From positions 1 to 64,000 of the forward strand of contig NZ_KB900618.1 in NCBI RefSeq assembly GCF_000379025.1: 64,000 bases of DNA. Direction: 5' to 3'. This DNA comes from Orenia marismortui DSM 5156 (GTDB lineage: Bacteria > Bacillota > Halanaerobiia > Halobacteroidales > Halobacteroidaceae). The translations under genes were made by a program, and so were the position numbers. Below are positions 4,021-39,432 of the stretch, piece after piece (within the stretch, counting starts at the first letter, position 1; every line of letters starts with the position of its first letter). The notes under the pieces are model-generated. The model was given only the letters and a program-made list of their open reading frames with translations. It ran no database searches and was not told the DNA's origin.

Positions 4021-4096
4021 TCTTGGCAATGGGAATAAAATCTTAAAATTATTAAAAACAGTAAATTTGGATTAAATATTTAAAAAGACGCACGTC

Positions 4097-4227
4097 GTGT
4101 AACAGCACTTTAGCGACATCCCAACTTAAGAGGATAAATTAAAAGTGGGGTTGACTTATGTGAGTGGTAGCTTTAATTAGAAGTTGGAGTATTTATGGGG
4201 ACGTCGCGAATCTCAGGGACGTTATGT
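4097..4227 (+). repeat. attC: attC-like site C
   Basis: R'' is GTGTAAC at 4097-4103, followed by the arm TAGCGACATCCC. The matching arm GGGGACGTCGCGAA ends at 4210, and R' is GTTATGT at 4221-4227. An extra stem CCAACTT/AAGTTGG is present inside the middle. The flank 4091-4102 pairs with the start of cassette 2 (2919-2930) at 11 of 12 positions. Confidence 0.87.
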
Positions 4228-4381
4228 GACATTCTCCCCCCAAAAACCATTGAAACCGATGTTAAAACATTGGTTTAATTAACTAATAGAATTCAACTTT
4301 TCAGATTGTTTATCATTTCGTTTGGTATATGCTATAATATTTATAAACAATATGATTAATAAATATTAGGAGGGATAGTTT

Positions 4382-6275: not shown

Positions 6276-6307
6276 TTTTGTCTCTAAGGACGCCATCCAT
6301 ATCCATC

Positions 6308-6437
6308 ACATAACAGTGGATTAGCTACACATCACTTGAGAATATGAATAGCGGCTAGGGTTGACTTATGTAAGATTGCGGCTTAATTAGAAAATAGGAG
6401 CACTAATGGAACGTCGCGAACCCCAGGAACGTTAGAT
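6308..6437 (+). repeat. attC: attC-like site E
   Basis: R'' is ACATAAC at 6308-6314 and R' is GTTAGAT at 6431-6437, a perfect GTTRRRY box. The right arm is GGAACGTCGCGAA; the left arm is less well kept. The flank 6293-6313 pairs at 18 of 21 positions with 5274-5294, the beginning of cassette 4, about 1 kb upstream. Confidence 0.87.
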
Positions 6438-7331: not shown

Positions 7332-7351
7332 TCGTGAAAACGTACAACTTC

Positions 7352-7482
7352 GTCTAACAGCACCTTAGCGACATTCCAATAGTGAGCGCAAATGAAAGTA
7401 GGACTGACTTATGTGAGGTTGCTAGGTTTAATTGAAGTTAGGAGCATTAATGGGGACGTCGCGAATCTCAGGAACGTTATCA
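7352..7482 (+). repeat. attC: attC-like site F
   Basis: R'' is GTCTAAC at 7352-7358, a perfect RYYYAAC box. The left arm TTAGCGACATTCC and the right arm GGGGACGTCGCGAA are well kept. R' is GTTATCA at 7476-7482. The flank 7342-7357 pairs with the start of cassette 5 (6432-6447) at 13 of 16 positions. Confidence 0.87.
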
Positions 7483-7515
7483 GACATGCCCCCTTATGAG
7501 AGAGGAGAAGATATT

Positions 7516-8778: not shown

Positions 8779-8912
8779 AGGGAACTACTTCGCCCAGTAA
8801 GATCCCAGTTGATATGCATAAATGAGGGCTGGGCTGACTTATGTTAGATTTATAGGTTTATCTTAAGAATAGTGGATTATTGAGGATGTCGCGAATCTGG
8901 GGGACCTTATCT
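8779..8912 (+). repeat. attC: attC-like site G, left-truncated
   Basis: The right half is clear: GGGCTGACTTATGTTAG, GATGTCGCGAATCT and an R'-like box where GTTA has become CTTA (8906-8909). The R'' box and most of the left arm are missing; only AAGATCCCAG remains. A deletion on the left side probably disabled this site. Confidence 0.7.
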
Positions 8913-9230
8913 GACATACATACATAGTCACTTTATTTGTTTACCCATATATAAAATGAAAATATGTAGGAAATATTATAAAAGTTTGTTTATTAAAGGA
9001 TATTTACTGTATAACAAGAATTATCTATATAATTTAAGATAAGCAAAATGAATTTATTATATAAAAGTTACAAGGGGGTATAAAAATATGAGGTTATGCA
9101 TTGTTTTAACTCCATGCAAAGTTAAATTAAGATAAAATTGCATGGAGATATCAAAAATTTAATTTGACTTTGCTACTTTGATAATTCTTTATATTAAATT
9201 AATCAAGGAGCATTCCTGTAATAAATAAAT
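8913..9230 (+). other. 5' part of cassette 7, with overlapping hairpins
   Basis: Bases 8907-8923 pair with 11943-11959 beside site H at 15 of 17 positions, so this is the start of cassette 7, now split by an IS110-family element. It holds a 15-codon frame at 9088-9135 behind a strong CAAGGGGG site. Two mutually exclusive hairpins are also present: 9110-9119 with 9138-9147 (10 bp, perfect), and 9116-9130 with 9159-9173 (15 bp, one mismatch). No other gene is seen. Confidence 0.5.
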
Positions 9231-9247
9231 ATCTAGATAGACAAAAA

Positions 9248-9307
9248 GAGCACCTCCTGATATAATACGGGGTATCTAAAAGATCCCTAAATAAAAAGGA
9301 GGTACTC
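9248..9307 (+). promoter_or_regulatory. Hairpin hiding the transposase ribosome site
   Basis: GAGCACCTCCT at 9248-9258 is complementary at 10 of 11 positions to AGGAGGTACTC at 9297-9307, which contains the Shine-Dalgarno sequence of the IS110-type transposase. An inner stem (GGGGTATCT with AGATCCC) extends it. In RNA reading in from outside, the site would be closed, a known way for insertion sequences to limit transposase synthesis. Confidence 0.6.
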
Positions 9308-9312
9308 ATAAA

Positions 9313-10596
9313 ATGAATTATAATCGAAATCGTAAAATAATGCAAGTAAAAACTTCAACTTTAGTGATTGGGGTTGATATTGCAAAGAAAAAGCATGTTG
9401 CAAGAGCTCAAGATTATCGTGGTATTGAATACGGAAAAGCGTTAGCTTTTCAAAATTCAAAAGAAGGATTTGATAACTTTTCAAAGTGGATGTTTAAATT
9501 AAAAGATCAATATGAGAAAGAAGATATAATAGTTGGAATGGAGCCAACAGGTCATTATTGGTTGAATTTAGCTCAACTTTTAAGATGCAAGGAAATAAAG
9601 TTGGTATTAGTCAATCCAAGTCATACAAAGAGAAGTAAAGAGTTAGATGATAATTCTCCGACAAAGAATGATAAGAAAGATGCTAAAGTAATAGCTCAAT
9701 TAGTTAAAGATGGGCGCTATTCAGAGCCTAATATACCAGTTGGTGTTTATGCTGATGTTCGTGTAGCAATGACCCATATGGAAAGATTAAATAAAGATTT
9801 ACAACGGGTAGTAGGAAAGATACATCAGTTTATTGATAAGTATTTTCCTGAATATTTAACAGTATTTAAAGGTTGGGATGGAAAGGCGTCTTTAGTTACA
9901 CTAAAGACATTTCCTCTGCCGTCTGAAGTAGTAAAAATGACACCAGAAGAAATAGTTTCAATTTGGAAGAAAAAAGTTAAAAGAGCAGTTGGAATAAAAC
10001 GAGCTAAAAAGCTTATAAGAGCTGCTGAAAATTCAGTAGGTTTAACTGAAGGAGCTGAAATAGCAAAGTTTGAATTAAATTATTTCTTAGATCAATATGA
10101 AAATATAACAAATCAAAGCGAAGAATTAACCAATAAAATAGAAGAGTTATTAAAGAAAGTACCAGATTCAGAATCAATGTTAAGTATCAAAGGGGTAGGA
10201 ATAAAGACAGTAGCAGGATTTATTTCAGAAGTTGGAGATATAAATAACTATGAACATCCACGACAAATACAAAAGCTAGCAGGGTTGAATTTAATGGAAA
10301 ATAGTTCAGGCAAACATAAGGGAAGAACTTGTATTACTAAAAGGGGAAGAGCTAAATTGAGAGCTTTACTATATAGAGTGATGCTGCCTCTGGTAGCAAA
10401 GAACGAAGAGTTTAAAGCACTTCATGAATACTACACAACTCGCTCTGAAAACCCTTTGAAGAAAAAGCAATCCCTAGTAGCTTTATCATGCAAATTAATT
10501 AGAGTATTATTTGCCTTATGGAAAAAGCAAGTGAAATATGATAGTGAAAAATTATTTAGAGATATTAAGCGTTCAAATTTACAGGAAGCTGCTTAA
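9313..10596 (+). CDS. IS110-family transposase (DEDD recombinase)
   Basis: The 427-residue protein has the two-part IS110 layout. The N-terminal RuvC-like DEDD domain shows VIGVDIAKKKHVA (near 19), VGMEPTGHYW (near 78) and the KNDKKDAKVIA segment (near 120). The C-terminal Transposase_20 domain shows LSIKGVGIKTVAGFISEVGD (near 295), the AGLNLMENSSGKHKG block with its catalytic serine, and RGRAKLRALLYRV. Family members recombine DNA under guidance of an RNA from the element's non-coding end. The frame is intact. Its ribosome site is AAGGAGGT, which is paired in the upstream hairpin. Confidence 0.92.
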   Translation: MNYNRNRKIMQVKTSTLVIGVDIAKKKHVARAQDYRGIEYGKALAFQNSKEGFDNFSKWMFKLKDQYEKEDIIVGMEPTGHYWLNLAQLLRCKEIKLVLVNPSHTKRSKELDDNSPTKNDKKDAKVIAQLVKDGRYSEPNIPVGVYADVRVAMTHMERLNKDLQRVVGKIHQFIDKYFPEYLTVFKGWDGKASLVTLKTFPLPSEVVKMTPEEIVSIWKKKVKRAVGIKRAKKLIRAAENSVGLTEGAEIAKFELNYFLDQYENITNQSEELTNKIEELLKKVPDSESMLSIKGVGIKTVAGFISEVGDINNYEHPRQIQKLAGLNLMENSSGKHKGRTCITKRGRAKLRALLYRVMLPLVAKNEEFKALHEYYTTRSENPLKKKQSLVALSCKLIRVLFALWKKQVKYDSEKLFRDIKRSNLQEAA

Positions 10597-10679
10597 AGAT
10601 ATTTAAAGTAAATTATTGGAATGTAAATTTTATAATATAAATCAATTATTTATGTTTGTTTTTCTTAGAGTAAGTACTT

Positions 10680-10865
10680 TGAAAAAGGAAGACTGGAAGA
10701 GCTGGAATTAATTTTTTCAATACGGGCATAGACCCTGACAAGGAGCATATCCAGCCTCCACCCATGGATAGGTAGAACGAAGGAATGTAGGGACATAGAT
10801 CCTGGGAGATATGGGAGGTTAAACTACCATGGAGATGTGGAGTTCCAATAAGCGACCATATTTTT
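10680..10865 (+). ncRNA. Candidate bridge RNA of the IS110-family element
   Basis: This non-coding stretch is visibly richer in G and C than anything around it. It carries paired and repeated blocks: CATAGACCCTG and CATAGATCCTG, CCTCC with GGGAGG, and two CATGGA units. IS110/IS1111 elements encode a structured guide RNA at a non-coding end; in the IS1111 branch it lies downstream of the transposase, as here. Secondary structure and loop targets were not computed. Confidence 0.5.
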
Positions 10866-11028
10866 TAAAATAATTGTTAAGTTTTTGGGGTTAGTTTATC
10901 CTTTCAATTCCAAATATTAATTGGTTTTAATAATTAAATCCATATTCCTTTTTTATAAGAAAACGAAATTCTAAGAATGAATGAGCATGAGTGAGATAAA
11001 TTTAATTTATAGAGGGAGGAAAGTTAGA

Positions 11029-11808
11029 ATGATATTAAGAGGAAACACATATTCAAAAACGCTTGAAATGGAAACGGGAATTACAGTTGTTACATCTAAT
11101 AAAATTATAGAAGAAGTTAAATATAAAGTAGCATATTTATTACATGGTCTTTGCGGAAGAAATGGTGACTTAGCAGATTATACAATGTTACCTGCATTTG
11201 CAAATGATTATAATATTATATTTATTATGCCAGAGGTGGCGAGAAGTTTTTATACAGATATGAAATATGGGTTGAAATATTTTAGTTATATTACAGAAGA
11301 ATTGCCTATAATTTGTAAAAGTATCTTTAACATATCATCCAAAAGAGAAGATACTATAATTATGGGAGCATCAATGGGTGGATATGGAGCTTTGAAATCT
11401 GCTCTATCAAAGCCTGAACAATATGGATATTGCTGTGCTTTTTCATCACCTTGTTTATATTTAAAAGAAGGTTTAGAAATGCAGAGAATGTATGGTCATA
11501 CAGAGGAATTTAAACAAACTTATGGTGAACAAATGATAAAGGATTTTCATGCAATATTTGGTGCTGAGCTTAAGTGGGATTCAAGATATGAAATAATGGA
11601 GTTAGCGAAGAAGATAAATCATAAAAAGACAAAGCCAATTATCTATGCAACATGTGGAACTAAAGATCATCTAAGAGAGGATAATATTCGATTTAGAGAA
11701 GAAATGAAAATGCTTGATTTTGATTTTATTTTTGAAGAATGGGAAGGTAATCATGATTGGTATTTCTTTAATGAATCTATAAGGAGAGCTTTGAAAAAAC
11801 TTATCTAA
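11029..11808 (+). CDS. Esterase, FrmB/esterase-D type
   Basis: This alpha/beta hydrolase of about 259 residues resembles the short esterase family that includes S-formylglutathione hydrolase and FrmB. The start KTLEMETGITVV, the oxyanion segment YLLHGLCGRNGD, the nucleophile elbow GASMGGYGALK and a C-terminal GNHDWYFF histidine are visible. An aspartate in CGTKDHLRE would complete the triad. I prefer ATG 11029, preceded by GGGAGGAAAG; an earlier ATG at 10981 has no ribosome site and extends past the family's usual start. It is the gene of cassette 7, now downstream of the IS110-type element. Confidence 0.82.
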   Translation: MILRGNTYSKTLEMETGITVVTSNKIIEEVKYKVAYLLHGLCGRNGDLADYTMLPAFANDYNIIFIMPEVARSFYTDMKYGLKYFSYITEELPIICKSIFNISSKREDTIIMGASMGGYGALKSALSKPEQYGYCCAFSSPCLYLKEGLEMQRMYGHTEEFKQTYGEQMIKDFHAIFGAELKWDSRYEIMELAKKINHKKTKPIIYATCGTKDHLREDNIRFREEMKMLDFDFIFEEWEGNHDWYFFNESIRRALKKLI

Positions 11809-11953
11809 GATAGAGTTATAGGGTTATATTGTTATATGATTTGTAGTTATAATTTTAAAATGGAGGGCAGGAAACTGTCCTTTATTTTAATATAAGAAAT
11901 ATTTTAAATATATTCTTATATTTATCATATAGTTCTAGATTTGTATATACGTC

Positions 11954-12084
11954 AGATAAGATGACCTTAGCAACATCCCAATAGTGAGGATAAATGAGGG
12001 TTGGGGCTGACTTATCTAAGATTTATAGTATTATTTGAGATTGGGAGCATTATCAGGGACACCGCCAATACTAGGAGGTTATAC
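11954..12084 (+). repeat. attC: attC-like site H
   Basis: R'' is AGATAAG at 11954-11960, where the conserved final C is now G. The left arm TTAGCAACATCCCAAT pairs partly with ATTGGGAG and GGGACACCGCCAA on the right, and R' is GTTATAC at 12078-12084. The flank 11943-11959 pairs with 8907-8923, the start of cassette 7, across the inserted IS110-family element. Confidence 0.8.
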
Positions 12085-12303
12085 GACATTTAAACTCAAA
12101 GTAATAAATTAACAATATCAGGAGATGTTTTATGTGAAATATAATAATAATTAGGATTATTTTTAGTTAAAAGATAATTTTTCTAATTAGTGTGAGAAAA
12201 ATAAATCATTAAAATAGATTCATAGATATTTACACAAATTCTTTATTATAAATGGGGAAATTTAGCTAAGAGTATTCTAATTTAGAAAATGAGGAGTGAT
12301 AAT

Positions 12304-17153: not shown

Positions 17154-18398
17154 ATGCTAGGAGAAAGTAGTTATGATGTCATAAGTACTATTCTAGAAGA
17201 AGTTTATAAGGAAGAGAGTATAATTGAGACAGATAGACTCAGAAATAATAATTTTATAGATGCTCTATTAGTTATTAGTAGTTTAGTTGATAAAAATGAT
17301 TCTACTTGTAGCGAATGTTTAGGAGTGAAAAATAAGATTCTAAGCTTAAGCAAAAAATTAAAAGCTATTATAAAGTACCCTAAACAGTATATTGGATATC
17401 AGCAGGAGTATAATGAGATTATAGTAAATTTCTTAGAACATTTTTGTACAAGACATAATAATTTAGAAGAAATTTTGAGTAAAGGATATAATTGTAGAGA
17501 TTATTATTGGTTGAGAGTAATATATGAACTAGAAATAATAAGAAATAGTAGACGGTTAAAGAAGATAAGCAAAAGATATGATATAGATTATTTAAGTCTA
17601 GCTTTCCTATGGATAATTGAAAATATTGAAGTAGAAGGAGGAAGCTATAGAGAACTAAATCAAGAAATGAATAAATTTATTTTTAATCTTTTTGAAACAG
17701 AGGATTTAGAGATTTTAGCTAATGATTATTTAAATCTTGTAAAACAATTAGCAATTTTGTTAGAAGAAGAAAGAAATAGATATAAAGAAGAAAGAAATGA
17801 AGATTATAATTTATACTATGATTTGACTCTCCTAGTTAAGGGAAGAGACATAATTGAGGAAGAAGAATCTAGAAAAAAACGAAGTAAGTTTATAAATATA
17901 TTGTACATATTAGATTATAATAAACATGATAATAAATATCTATTAAAATTAACAACAATGGCCTTTAATATTGAAGGTTCAGCTAGAGAAAGTGAATTTT
18001 GTAATCAGTTAAAGAGAAAGTTAACTTTTTCTCTAGAAGAAATAGAAACATTTAAGAGTAAGAAAAGGAAAAATTTTGTAGCATATAAAAAATTCAATAA
18101 AAAGTATCGTAAGCTTATAAAAAATTACAAAAATCATTTTAAAAATTATCATGATAAATTTGATGTTGAGAGTTTTGATAAAAAGATAATAACTCCCTTA
18201 GTCTATTTAATAGCAGGTATTATTGGTATATTTTCTGCTTATCTTGCAGATAAATATAATTTACCAGGCAGATTTATAATGATTATATTTATATTAGTTT
18301 TTGTATTTGTTGAAGATAAAGTCGAAAAGAAAATGCTTCATTGTAAAATCAAATTGAACAAAATAAAAATAGCCATAGGGCACCAAACTGTAATATAA
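17154..18398 (+). CDS. Unknown coiled protein with C-terminal membrane hairpin, 3' end replaced by IS30
   Basis: The present frame codes 414 residues. Most are charged helices rich in lysine, glutamate and tyrosine, followed by two membrane segments (about 346-364 and 374-390). The IS30 copy begins at 18335, so residues after VEDKVEKK come from the element. Joining the two target-duplication copies restores the original ending: after VEKK come ILKLICKTKDVF and a stop at 19592-19594. The insertion therefore swapped about 12 residues for 21. I do not recognise the family. GGTGATGAT precedes the start. Confidence 0.6.
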   Translation: MLGESSYDVISTILEEVYKEESIIETDRLRNNNFIDALLVISSLVDKNDSTCSECLGVKNKILSLSKKLKAIIKYPKQYIGYQQEYNEIIVNFLEHFCTRHNNLEEILSKGYNCRDYYWLRVIYELEIIRNSRRLKKISKRYDIDYLSLAFLWIIENIEVEGGSYRELNQEMNKFIFNLFETEDLEILANDYLNLVKQLAILLEEERNRYKEERNEDYNLYYDLTLLVKGRDIIEEEESRKKRSKFINILYILDYNKHDNKYLLKLTTMAFNIEGSARESEFCNQLKRKLTFSLEEIETFKSKKRKNFVAYKKFNKKYRKLIKNYKNHFKNYHDKFDVESFDKKIITPLVYLIAGIIGIFSAYLADKYNLPGRFIMIIFILVFVFVEDKVEKKMLHCKIKLNKIKIAIGHQTVI

Positions 18399-19542
18399 TT
18401 AAATCACCACAAAATAACCAGTTACAGGAGGGTGCACACTATGACTTACTTAAATGATACACCAAAATCCCGAAAAAATAAACACCTAAATGCTTATGAA
18501 CGTGGTCAAATTGCATTATTACATTCCGAAGGAATGAATCCAAATGCTATTGCAAAACGTTTAGGTAGAGCTTCTAATACCATTAGAAACGAACTAAAAC
18601 GTGGTACAGTTTCTCAAATTAAAGCTAATAAAAAGATTATGGTCTATTACCCTGACACTGGTCAAAGAGTTTATGAATCTAATCGCAAGAATTGTGGTCC
18701 TAAATTTAAACTTTTGCAATGTGAAGAGTTCATTGATTATGTTATAGAACAGTTCTACGAAAAAGGACATTCTCTTGATGCTATATGTGGTGCAGCAAAA
18801 CTTCATAATAAATTTCCAAAGCCAGAGATGGTATCTACTAAAACGCTTTATAACTACGTCAACGCTGGATTATTGACAATTAAAAACATTGATTTACCTT
18901 TGAAGCTTAAGCGTTCTTCAAAAAGAAAGCACACTAAAAATAATAAAAAGAAGCTTGGTACAAGTATAGATCAACGCCCTGAAAGTATTAATAATCGTAG
19001 TGAGTTTGGTCACTGGGAAATTGACACTATGATAGGCAAAAAGACTAAAAATGAATCAGTTTTACTTACTATGACAGAACGTATGACTCGTAAAGAAATT
19101 ATTCGTAAAATCCCTGCCAAGACTGCTCAAGCAGTTCAAGATGCTATTTTAAAGCTCGTTAATGAAGCAGGAGATTGTTTTCCAAAAGTATTTAAAAGCT
19201 TCACTTGTGATAATGGCTCTGAGTTTGCTCAAATGTCATTTTTAGAGCAAATTAGTGATACTAAAGTATACTTTGCACATCCATATTCATCATGGGAAAG
19301 AGGAACTAATGAGCGTCATAATGGTCTTATAAGACGCTTTATCCCTAAAGGTAATAGTCTAAACCAATTCTCTATTGAATCTATTGCTAGAGTCCAAAAC
19401 TGGTGCAATACTTTACCAAGAAAAATCTTAGATTACCTAACCCCTGATGAAATATTTGAAGATAAATTAAAACAAATTCTTTATGACTAAATAACCAAAT
19501 TATTACAGTTTGAAAATGTTCAATTTATTATTGCAATTTAAG
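18335..19542 (+). mobile_element. IS30-family element, copy 1
   Basis: It is 1208 bp and flanked by a 13-bp duplication TCGAAAAGAAAAT (18322-18334 and 19543-19555). Ends are imperfect inverted repeats: CTTCATTG... on the left against CTTAAATTG... on the right, with AAATTGAACA and AAACTGTAAT shared further in. It matches copy 2 at 38224-39432 almost base for base. Confidence 0.88.
18441..19490 (+). CDS. IS30-family transposase (intact)
   Basis: The 349-residue product has an N-terminal helix-turn-helix (LNAYERGQIALLHSEGMNPN, AIAKRLGRASNTIRNEL). The DDE core is visible as GHWEIDTMIGKK (near 195, first D), FTCDNGSEF (near 257, second D) and SSWERGTNERHNGLIRRFIP (near 282, the E), which are the IS30 signatures. 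ATG 18441 follows CAGGAGGGTG by a normal distance; a GTG at 18432 lies too close to the ribosome site. Unlike copy 2, this frame is unbroken. Confidence 0.93.
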   Translation: MTYLNDTPKSRKNKHLNAYERGQIALLHSEGMNPNAIAKRLGRASNTIRNELKRGTVSQIKANKKIMVYYPDTGQRVYESNRKNCGPKFKLLQCEEFIDYVIEQFYEKGHSLDAICGAAKLHNKFPKPEMVSTKTLYNYVNAGLLTIKNIDLPLKLKRSSKRKHTKNNKKKLGTSIDQRPESINNRSEFGHWEIDTMIGKKTKNESVLLTMTERMTRKEIIRKIPAKTAQAVQDAILKLVNEAGDCFPKVFKSFTCDNGSEFAQMSFLEQISDTKVYFAHPYSSWERGTNERHNGLIRRFIPKGNSLNQFSIESIARVQNWCNTLPRKILDYLTPDEIFEDKLKQILYD

Positions 19543-38200: not shown

Positions 38201-38223
38201 TTAAATATAATTTTCTTTTTAAG

Positions 38224-39432
38224 GCTTCATTGTAAAATCAAATTGAACAAAATAAAAATAGCCATAGGGCACCAAACTGTAATATAATTAAATCACCACA
38301 AAATAACCAGTTACAGGAGGGTGCACACTATGACTTACTTAAATGATACACCAAAATCCCGAAAAAATAAACACCTAAATGCTTATGAACGTGGTCAAAT
38401 TGCATTATTACATTCCGAAGGAATGAATCCAAATGCTATTGCAAAACGTTTAGGTAGAGCTTCTAATACCATTAGAAACGAACTAAAACGTGGTACAGTT
38501 TCTCAAATTAAAGCTAATAAAAAGATTATGGTCTATTACCCTGACACTGGTCAAAGAGTTTATGAATCTAATCGCAAGAATTGTGGTCCTAAATTTAAAC
38601 TTTTGCAATGTGAAGAGTTCATTGATTATGTTATAGAACAGTTCTACGAAAAAGGACATTCTCTTGATGCTATATGTGGTGCAGCAAAACTTCATAATAA
38701 ATTTCCAAAGCCAGAGATGGTATCTACTAAAACGCTTTATAACTACGTCAACGCTGGATTATTGACAATTAAAAACATTGATTTACCTTTGAAGCTTAAG
38801 CGTTCTTCAAAAAGAAAGCACACTAAAAATAATAAAAAGAAGCTTGGTACAAGTATAGATCAACGCCCTGAAAGTATTAATAATCGTAGTGAGTTTGGTC
38901 ACTGGGAAATTGACACTATGATAGGCAAAAAGACTAAAAATGAATCAGTTTTTACTTACTATGACAGAACGTATGACTCGTAAAGAAATTATTCGTAAAA
39001 TCCCTGCCAAGACTGCTCAAGCAGTTCAAGATGCTATTTTAAAGCTCGTTAATGAAGCAGGAGATTGTTTTCCAAAAGTATTTAAAAGCTTCACTTGTGA
39101 TAATGGCTCTGAGTTTGCTCAAATGTCATTTTTAGAGCAAATTAGTGATACTAAAGTATACTTTGCACATCCATATTCATCATGGGAAAGAGGAACTAAT
39201 GAGCGTCATAATGGTCTTATAAGACGCTTTATCCCTAAAGGTAATAGTCTAAACCAATTCTCTATTGAATCTATTGCTAGAGTCCAAAACTGGTGCAATA
39301 CTTTACCAAGAAAAATCTTAGATTACCTAACCCCTGATGAAATATTTGAAGATAAATTAAAAAAAATTCTTTATGACTAAATAACCAAATTATTACAGTT
39401 TGAAAATGTTCAATTTATTATTGCAATTTAAG
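38224..39432 (+). mobile_element. IS30-family element, copy 2
   Basis: It is 1209 bp and nearly identical to copy 1. It is flanked by a 13-bp duplication TTTTCTTTTTAAG (38211-38223 and 39433-39445). It landed just downstream of the HD-GYP terminator and directly beside hairpin repeat copy 3. Confidence 0.88.
38330..39380 (+). pseudogene. IS30 transposase, frameshifted
   Basis: Compared with copy 1, one extra T lies in the run after GAATCAGTT (near 38948-38954; five T instead of four). The first part stops after about 217 residues and the rest continues in another frame from about 38940. One further change near 39362 turns a C into A. The break separates the first DDE aspartate from the others, so no active transposase is expected unless the ribosome slips. 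Confidence 0.88.

Follow-up and report, generated by a model that had tools for sequence, protein, structure and literature searches.

The 64,000-nucleotide (nt) stretch of DNA analysed here (the window; Orenia marismortui DSM 5156, contig NZ_KB900618.1, positions 1 to 64,000) carries on its forward strand an IS110-family insertion element at 9211-11018, whose right end holds a candidate bridge RNA, the subject of this report. The element is 1808 base pairs (bp) long, with one copy of its AG core excluded. The host genome contains four copies with unrelated flanks that are >99.6% identical to each other; their alignment spans 9211 to 11018 and diverges immediately outside. At the left boundary of the aligned copies AAGGAG is followed by CATTCCTGTAAT, and at the right boundary TTATAGAGGGAG is followed by G, with AG as the common core. 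Insertion involved a short defined target and a single orientation, with no target duplication past the core. In a second species, whose recombinase is 63% identical, four copies of full length terminate in the same way as the window element.

On its left, the element adjoins TCAAGGAG (9203-9210, core AG at 9209-9210) and begins with CATTCCT (9211-9217). It terminates in TTATAGAGGGAG (11007-11018, core AG at 11017-11018) and is followed by the right target flank (11019-11031), which consists of GAAAGTTAGA plus the ATG (11029) of the interrupted gene. This start codon lies 10 nt past the end of GGAG. The interrupted gene (11029-11808, forward strand) is an open reading frame (ORF) of 259 codons, and its 259 amino acid (aa) product is predicted, from sequence only, to resemble esterases and alpha/beta hydrolases.

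The element encodes a recombinase of 427 aa (9313-10596, forward strand), flanked within the element by 102 nt of upstream and 422 nt of downstream non-coding sequence. The protein matched PF01548 (5e-30) and PF02371 (2e-21), scored 231 bits against NF033542, above the cut-off, and gave a profile match to the IS621 and ISCro4 structures (1e-20). The DEDD residues (D22, E77, D120, D123) and the SG motif of the Transposase_20 domain (S332, G333) are invariant columns among the relatives. The closest named relative was Halonatronum saccharophilum, followed by Halanaerobium, consistent with an earlier note that had guessed a halophile-like host from the sequence.

The earlier note had also placed a candidate bridge RNA at 10680-10865, pointing to a GC-rich stretch after the transposase with repeated and paired blocks. 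Both observations held: GC content reaches 0.40 in 10700-10899 (46% in the modelled RNA), whereas most 200-nt windows of non-coding sequence nearby have 0.21-0.32, and a 15-nt repeat pair at 80% identity (10762-10776 and 10827-10841) arises mostly from the two arms of the helix CCAUGG..CCAUGG. The RNA itself was delimited by comparison. Forty-three relatives were extracted and compared, of which 32 were aligned from the outer helix onward. The RNA sequences were cut at this helix before the final alignment; in the uncut alignment it was misplaced because the length of the right guide varies.

The comparison revealed a structure with two loops, in which six helices contribute 27 pairs. Across the 32 relatives 95.2% of the cells were paired, compared to 85.0% in shuffles, and sliding the partners by 1-3 columns reduced this to 33-47%. 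Nineteen of the 27 pairs were altered on both sides, with 100 doubly changed cells as opposed to 29 in shuffles. Both loops share one plan, in which a right guide is followed by a small hairpin (GGGC-AUAGA-CCC) and a left guide. The predicted target-binding loop (10701-10755, forward strand) is closed by GCTGGA (10701-10706) and TCCAGC (10750-10755) around an inner hairpin of GGG (10724-10726) and CCC (10733-10735); these two helices showed compensatory change in 5/6 and 2/3 pairs, respectively. The predicted donor-binding loop (10757-10841, forward strand) comprises helices 3-6, including TCCAC (10757-10761) with GTGGA (10837-10841), CATGG (10763-10767) with CCATG (10827-10831), and GGT with ACT.

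A covariance model built from the relatives (R1) identified the RNA core at 10701-10845 on the forward strand as its sole match in the window (148.1 bits, E 1.8e-35), and in the host genome it returned exactly four matches, one per element. In relatives outside the model (e.g., L165, L167, L169, L166, L045 and L168) R1 scored 38-126 bits, always downstream of the recombinase gene, and it recovered the RNA in left-out relatives down to ~40% recombinase protein identity. Rfam gave no credible match at curated or at permissive thresholds; evidently no sufficiently close family exists there. Neither of the two refuting outcomes named in the earlier note was observed: the covarying structure is kept across copies and relatives, and the element ends at 9211 and 11018 enclose the whole region.

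We then compared the loops with the element ends and the target; the guides match both, with covariation. The putative left target guide, ACAAGGAG (10738-10745, forward strand), directly follows the first hairpin and reads identically to the top strand of the left target, core AG included. Over 57 insertion sites, this guide was compared with the 8 nt that precede the element; at every position but the first, 0.79-0.98 of the guides matched. For the first six positions 265/342 matched, while 5000 shuffles gave a mean of 151 and a maximum of 183. The signal persisted within the class of elements whose guides end in GGAG (50/60, shuffle maximum 45) and within the class with other guides (165/180, shuffle maximum 137). 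Examples of guide and left flank include ACAAGGAG with TCAAGGAG in the window, TATAGGAG with AATAGGAG in L059, CAAGAAAG with TAAGAAAG in Cytobacillus, CAAACTAG with TAAACTAG on Priestia plasmids, and TGGGCCAG with TCGGCCAG in L093.

The putative right target guide, TTTTTTC (10712-10718, forward strand; RNA UUUUUUC), is complementary to GAAAAA right of the core and lies 4-5 nt ahead of the first hairpin. It also co-changes with the right flank over the 57 sites (284/399 matched; 3000 shuffles, mean 208, maximum 240), as in L076, L087 and L088, where the guide complement and the flank both read TTTAGTT. Registers with a gap of 0-3 or 6-8 gave no clear signal.

The donor guides were read from the element ends in the same way. 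The putative right donor guide AGGAATG (10781-10787, forward strand) is the reverse complement of the left end CATTCCT, and the putative left donor guide TATGGGAG (10810-10817, forward strand) matches the right end ..TATAGAGGGAG in GGGAG. The left end is invariant in nearly all relatives, and where the RNA differs, the end differs too: L136 pairs the RNA AAGGACTGC with the left end GCAGTCCT, and five Lachnospiraceae-like elements (L042, L045, L046, L052, L168) combine the RNA AAGGAAG with the left end CTTCCT. Likewise, the left donor guide and the right end share AGGAG in L042 and GAGAG in L168. End changes are rare, and these few cases were read by eye, without statistics. Co-change with the DNA supports all four predicted guide segments.

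All four insertions in the host genome are located just upstream of a start codon, inside the Shine-Dalgarno sequence, as are at least three of the four in the second species with respect to the start codon. Among the elements with guides ending in GGAG, 29 of 43 distinct sites lie 6-12 nt before a start codon (mode 8 nt), although one of these 43 sites (L090, guide GCGGGGAG) really belongs to a group that targets a palindrome. Only 1/37 sites of elements with other guides is ahead of a start codon (Fisher p 3e-10, a nominal value given that the sites are phylogenetically non-independent), and the background at random positions is 2.5-7.4%. A start codon was counted if it opened an ORF of at least 60 codons, or of at least 25 codons running off the sequence end. 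These counts identify the Shine-Dalgarno sequence as the insertion site of the GGAG-guide elements. A literature search for IS110 or IS1111 elements in Shine-Dalgarno sequences found none, with subscription journals and ISfinder being outside the search.

An empty site could also be identified. As no copy of the element was found in the genomes of the host's own genus, it was demonstrated with the Halanaerobium copy L062 rather than with the window copy. In other Halanaerobium-class genomes the two flanks of L062 directly adjoin each other, and the junction in genome G034 reads AAAGGAGCATAAAAAAATG (AAAGGAG-N-ATG). A single Shine-Dalgarno sequence is split here into two halves, the element's left flank and the bases preceding the start codon.

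Together, the RNA structure, the ends, the co-change of guides with flanks and ends, the insertion into Shine-Dalgarno sequences, and the empty site in relatives, all of them computed results, make it very probable that this IS110-family element carries in its right end, at 10701-10845, a bridge RNA (seekRNA) with guides directed at the Shine-Dalgarno sequence. Several observations weigh against this. The single-sequence fold is moderately stable (-46.4 kcal/mol, z -1.92; 7/200 shuffles equally good); folding, which the earlier note had suggested as a check, is no proof on its own, whereas the strong comparative structure supplies it. About one third of the GGAG-guide insertions have no recognisable start codon behind them. 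The right target guide fits the element's own four sites only partly, forming 3 to 6 Watson-Crick pairs out of 7. Its register is not constant, with a gap of 4 nt at some sites and 5 nt at others, and its signal is weaker within the Shine-Dalgarno class alone, where 9/3000 shuffles reach it. A conserved structure directly after the recombinase gene and followed by a T run (~10861-10866) might also belong to the transposase mRNA, as part of its 3' untranslated region or as a terminator, and play no role in guiding. We regard this as highly improbable, since the loop segments co-change with target flanks and element ends, as those of a terminator would not, and no terminator-like match was called at the RNA.

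A different question is why such sites are hit. It is conceivable, though we lean against it, that the guide recognises AAGGAG(G) simply as a motif, irrespective of translation; Shine-Dalgarno sites would then be hit only because they make up most such motifs in an AT-rich genome and because selection removes intragenic insertions. Within the window, 7/12 AAGGAGG and 17/53 AAGGAG sites already precede a start codon, and the guides of relatives have been rewritten freely to unrelated targets. The observed fraction of 67%, however, is twice that of all AAGGAG sites, guides ending in GGAG are spread widely over the tree and have switched only a few times, and a right end that re-supplies GGGAGG makes the choice of a Shine-Dalgarno sequence harmless. 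Both explanations involve the same chemistry and differ in the reason.

For the Shine-Dalgarno-directed bridge RNA, we infer the following course of events. The RNA, once transcribed, would form a complex with the recombinase encoded just upstream. Its first loop would read the target, with the left guide ACAAGGAG and the right guide UUUUUUC addressing the Shine-Dalgarno sequence AAGGAG/G.. before a gene (predicted target AATCAAGGAGGAAAGTT), while the second loop would read the junction at which the right end GAGGGAG and the left end CATTCCT meet in the excised circle (predicted donor TATAGAGGGAGCATTCCT). RNA-guided strand exchange by the recombinase would then join both DNAs at the common AG core without adding bases. 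The element always lands in sense orientation, past the transcription start of the target gene but ahead of its start codon. There, the right end GAGGGAG and the G of the target would form GGGAGG, a new Shine-Dalgarno sequence at the right and almost unchanged distance, and the target gene should remain translatable.

The left end may protect the element from its own landing site. Its 102 nt are occupied by a promoter-like match and a hairpin. The predicted transposase promoter (9238-9266, forward strand) has the form TAGACA-17-TATAAT with TG ahead of the -10 element and 11/12 consensus matches. Folding of the left ends predicted a hairpin (9248-9307, forward strand) between GAGCACCTCC (9248-9257) and GGAGGTACTC (9298-9307), the latter being the Shine-Dalgarno sequence of the transposase gene itself, and most relatives tested had a comparable hairpin with different letters, e.g., CTCCTTGGTAT with ATACCAAGGAG in L010. 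As the 5' arm is upstream of the expected transcription start, the hairpin should form in read-through transcripts only. It would thereby prevent excess recombinase from being made when transcription of the target gene reads through into the element, a sensible guard for an element that lands in sense inside transcribed leaders.

With regard to family placement, the element shows the features of the broad IS110 family, namely a predicted DEDD RuvC-like domain with Transposase_20 and its SG motif, and a two-loop RNA complementary to target and donor. Its left end of 102 nt does not contain the RNA, as the strict IS110 group would require in a long left end. The earlier note had favoured the IS1111 branch. 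In agreement with this, the RNA lies downstream of the recombinase gene, and the guide order fits as well: the guide pairing with the top strand (10712-10718) precedes the bottom-strand guide (10738-10745), as in IS1111, while the order is reversed in IS110 (PMC11187229). Nevertheless, regular membership in the IS1111 group appears unlikely. The recombinase exceeds the 330-350 aa of IS1111 recombinases (PMC11187229) and matches IS4321 only locally, with 27% identity over the C-terminal 150 aa. The element ends lack the IS1111-type subterminal inverted repeats, which measure 11-13 bp and lie 7 bp and 3 bp inward of the ends; beside the donor sites the only repeat is the short, imperfect pair TTATAG/CTGTAA, which resembles the IS110 group. 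Moreover, a downstream non-coding region is also known in IS110-type groups (PMC11187229, Fig. 1b green). We thus file the element as an IS110-family variant with downstream RNA.

Among characterised systems, IS621 (PMC11208160) likewise has a DEDD recombinase with Transposase_20, target and donor loops with two guides each, a left guide pairing with the bottom strand and a right guide pairing with the top strand, and a dinucleotide core. It differs in carrying its RNA in the left end, whereas the window element has it in the right end with the right guide before the left guide in both loops. The IS621 recombinase is also shorter (328 aa), its core is CT instead of AG, and it has its own target rather than a Shine-Dalgarno sequence. 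The IS1111 elements ISEc11, ISKpn4 and ISPa11 (PMC11187229) share the downstream seekRNA, the leading top-strand complement and natural guide rewriting with the window element, but differ in recombinase length and sequence and have long subterminal inverted repeats; they target a short linear site, attC or REP instead of Shine-Dalgarno sequences. The IS110-type group with a downstream non-coding region, uncharacterised in PMC11187229, resembles the window element in combining an IS110-type protein with a downstream RNA region.

Relatives were common in Bacillota, with 585 confirmed stretches, of which the best 80 were kept; 32 plasmids and some viral contigs carried them as well. A quick tree indicated that GGAG guides are widespread and that at least eight changes among three guide classes are needed. 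GGGCAG guides dominate one Bacillaceae/Paenibacillaceae branch and are aimed at the palindromic repeat CTAACGGGGCAG/GTTAGTT. In many genera of Bacillaceae and Paenibacillaceae (L064-L126), we observed that a branch of relatives targets the palindromic repeat AACTAACGGGGCAG/GTTAGTTGAAnAAGG. The changes in guide class are natural rewriting, as described for ISEc11 and ISXne4 (PMC11187229). For this Bacillota subfamily, we consider it likely that Shine-Dalgarno guides are widespread and probably ancestral, offering a universal landing pad with sense landing, a restored signal and self-protection by the hairpin, and that some lineages rewrote their guides later. Separately, the Halonatronum genome G003 (L157:1819-4934, L158:1735-5606) contains seven identical full bridge RNAs and few intact recombinase genes. 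Several copies retain only the C-terminal part of the gene, the RNA and the right end, some of them in tandem with the same right flank; either decay or mobilisation in trans could account for this.

An array of ~125-nt repeats, one unit of which encloses the element, is present in the window at 1728-1861, 2790-2931, 4094-4238, 6305-6434, 7349-7492, 8820-8917, 11951-12089 and 12824; the same genome has a second array at C2:438-481 kilobases. The repeats have the same orientation, with about one gene or toxin-antitoxin-like pair each, and end in TC-NNN-TAAC and GTTA-NNN-GAC. The 3' NNN of a repeat is the reverse complement of the 5' NNN of the next in 5/6 steps in the window, and in all checkable steps but one in the second array and in a sister species. 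There are 26 copies in the host genome and 25 in G006, and the repeat is present in 11/14 related genomes. Such chaining of end triplets is a hallmark of attC-bearing integron gene cassettes, and the array resembles a chromosomal integron of large size in Halobacteroidaceae-like halophiles. The integron carriers named in PMC8618304 include Firmicutes, and a literature search for integrons in Halanaerobiales found no paper. Despite this setting, attC was rejected as the target of the element, whose four insertions are in Shine-Dalgarno sites and not in repeats.

Two tyrosine recombinases, L227:204-1247 (reverse strand, host genome C6) and L223:4346-5512 (reverse strand, G006, beside its array), are each the best match of their genome to the integron integrase family TIGR02249, below the family cut-off. 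They have an IntI-like C-terminus (..IESPLDKF) and an unusual N-terminal extension; the alignment falls into two pieces, and the integron-specific extra region (~model positions 180-233) is missing or very divergent. This recombinase is a candidate array integrase, possibly of a non-canonical integron. Elsewhere in the window, 18332-19359 and 38221-39249 are long identical repeats ~19.9 kilobases apart, probably another insertion sequence or a duplicated gene.

With all four guides legible from co-change and a covariance model at hand, the RNA represents a fully readable natural bridge RNA. The layout of its clade mixes IS110 and IS1111 features, and so bears on how the RNA moved between element ends and how guide order is tied to such moves. 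The natural rewrites, directed at the Shine-Dalgarno sequence, the Bacillaceae palindromic repeat, a site in Priestia and other targets, already provide tests of programmability. If true, targeting of Shine-Dalgarno sequences would be a new answer to the problem of finding abundant, nearly harmless sites, and it predicts that the interrupted genes are expressed from the restored signal.
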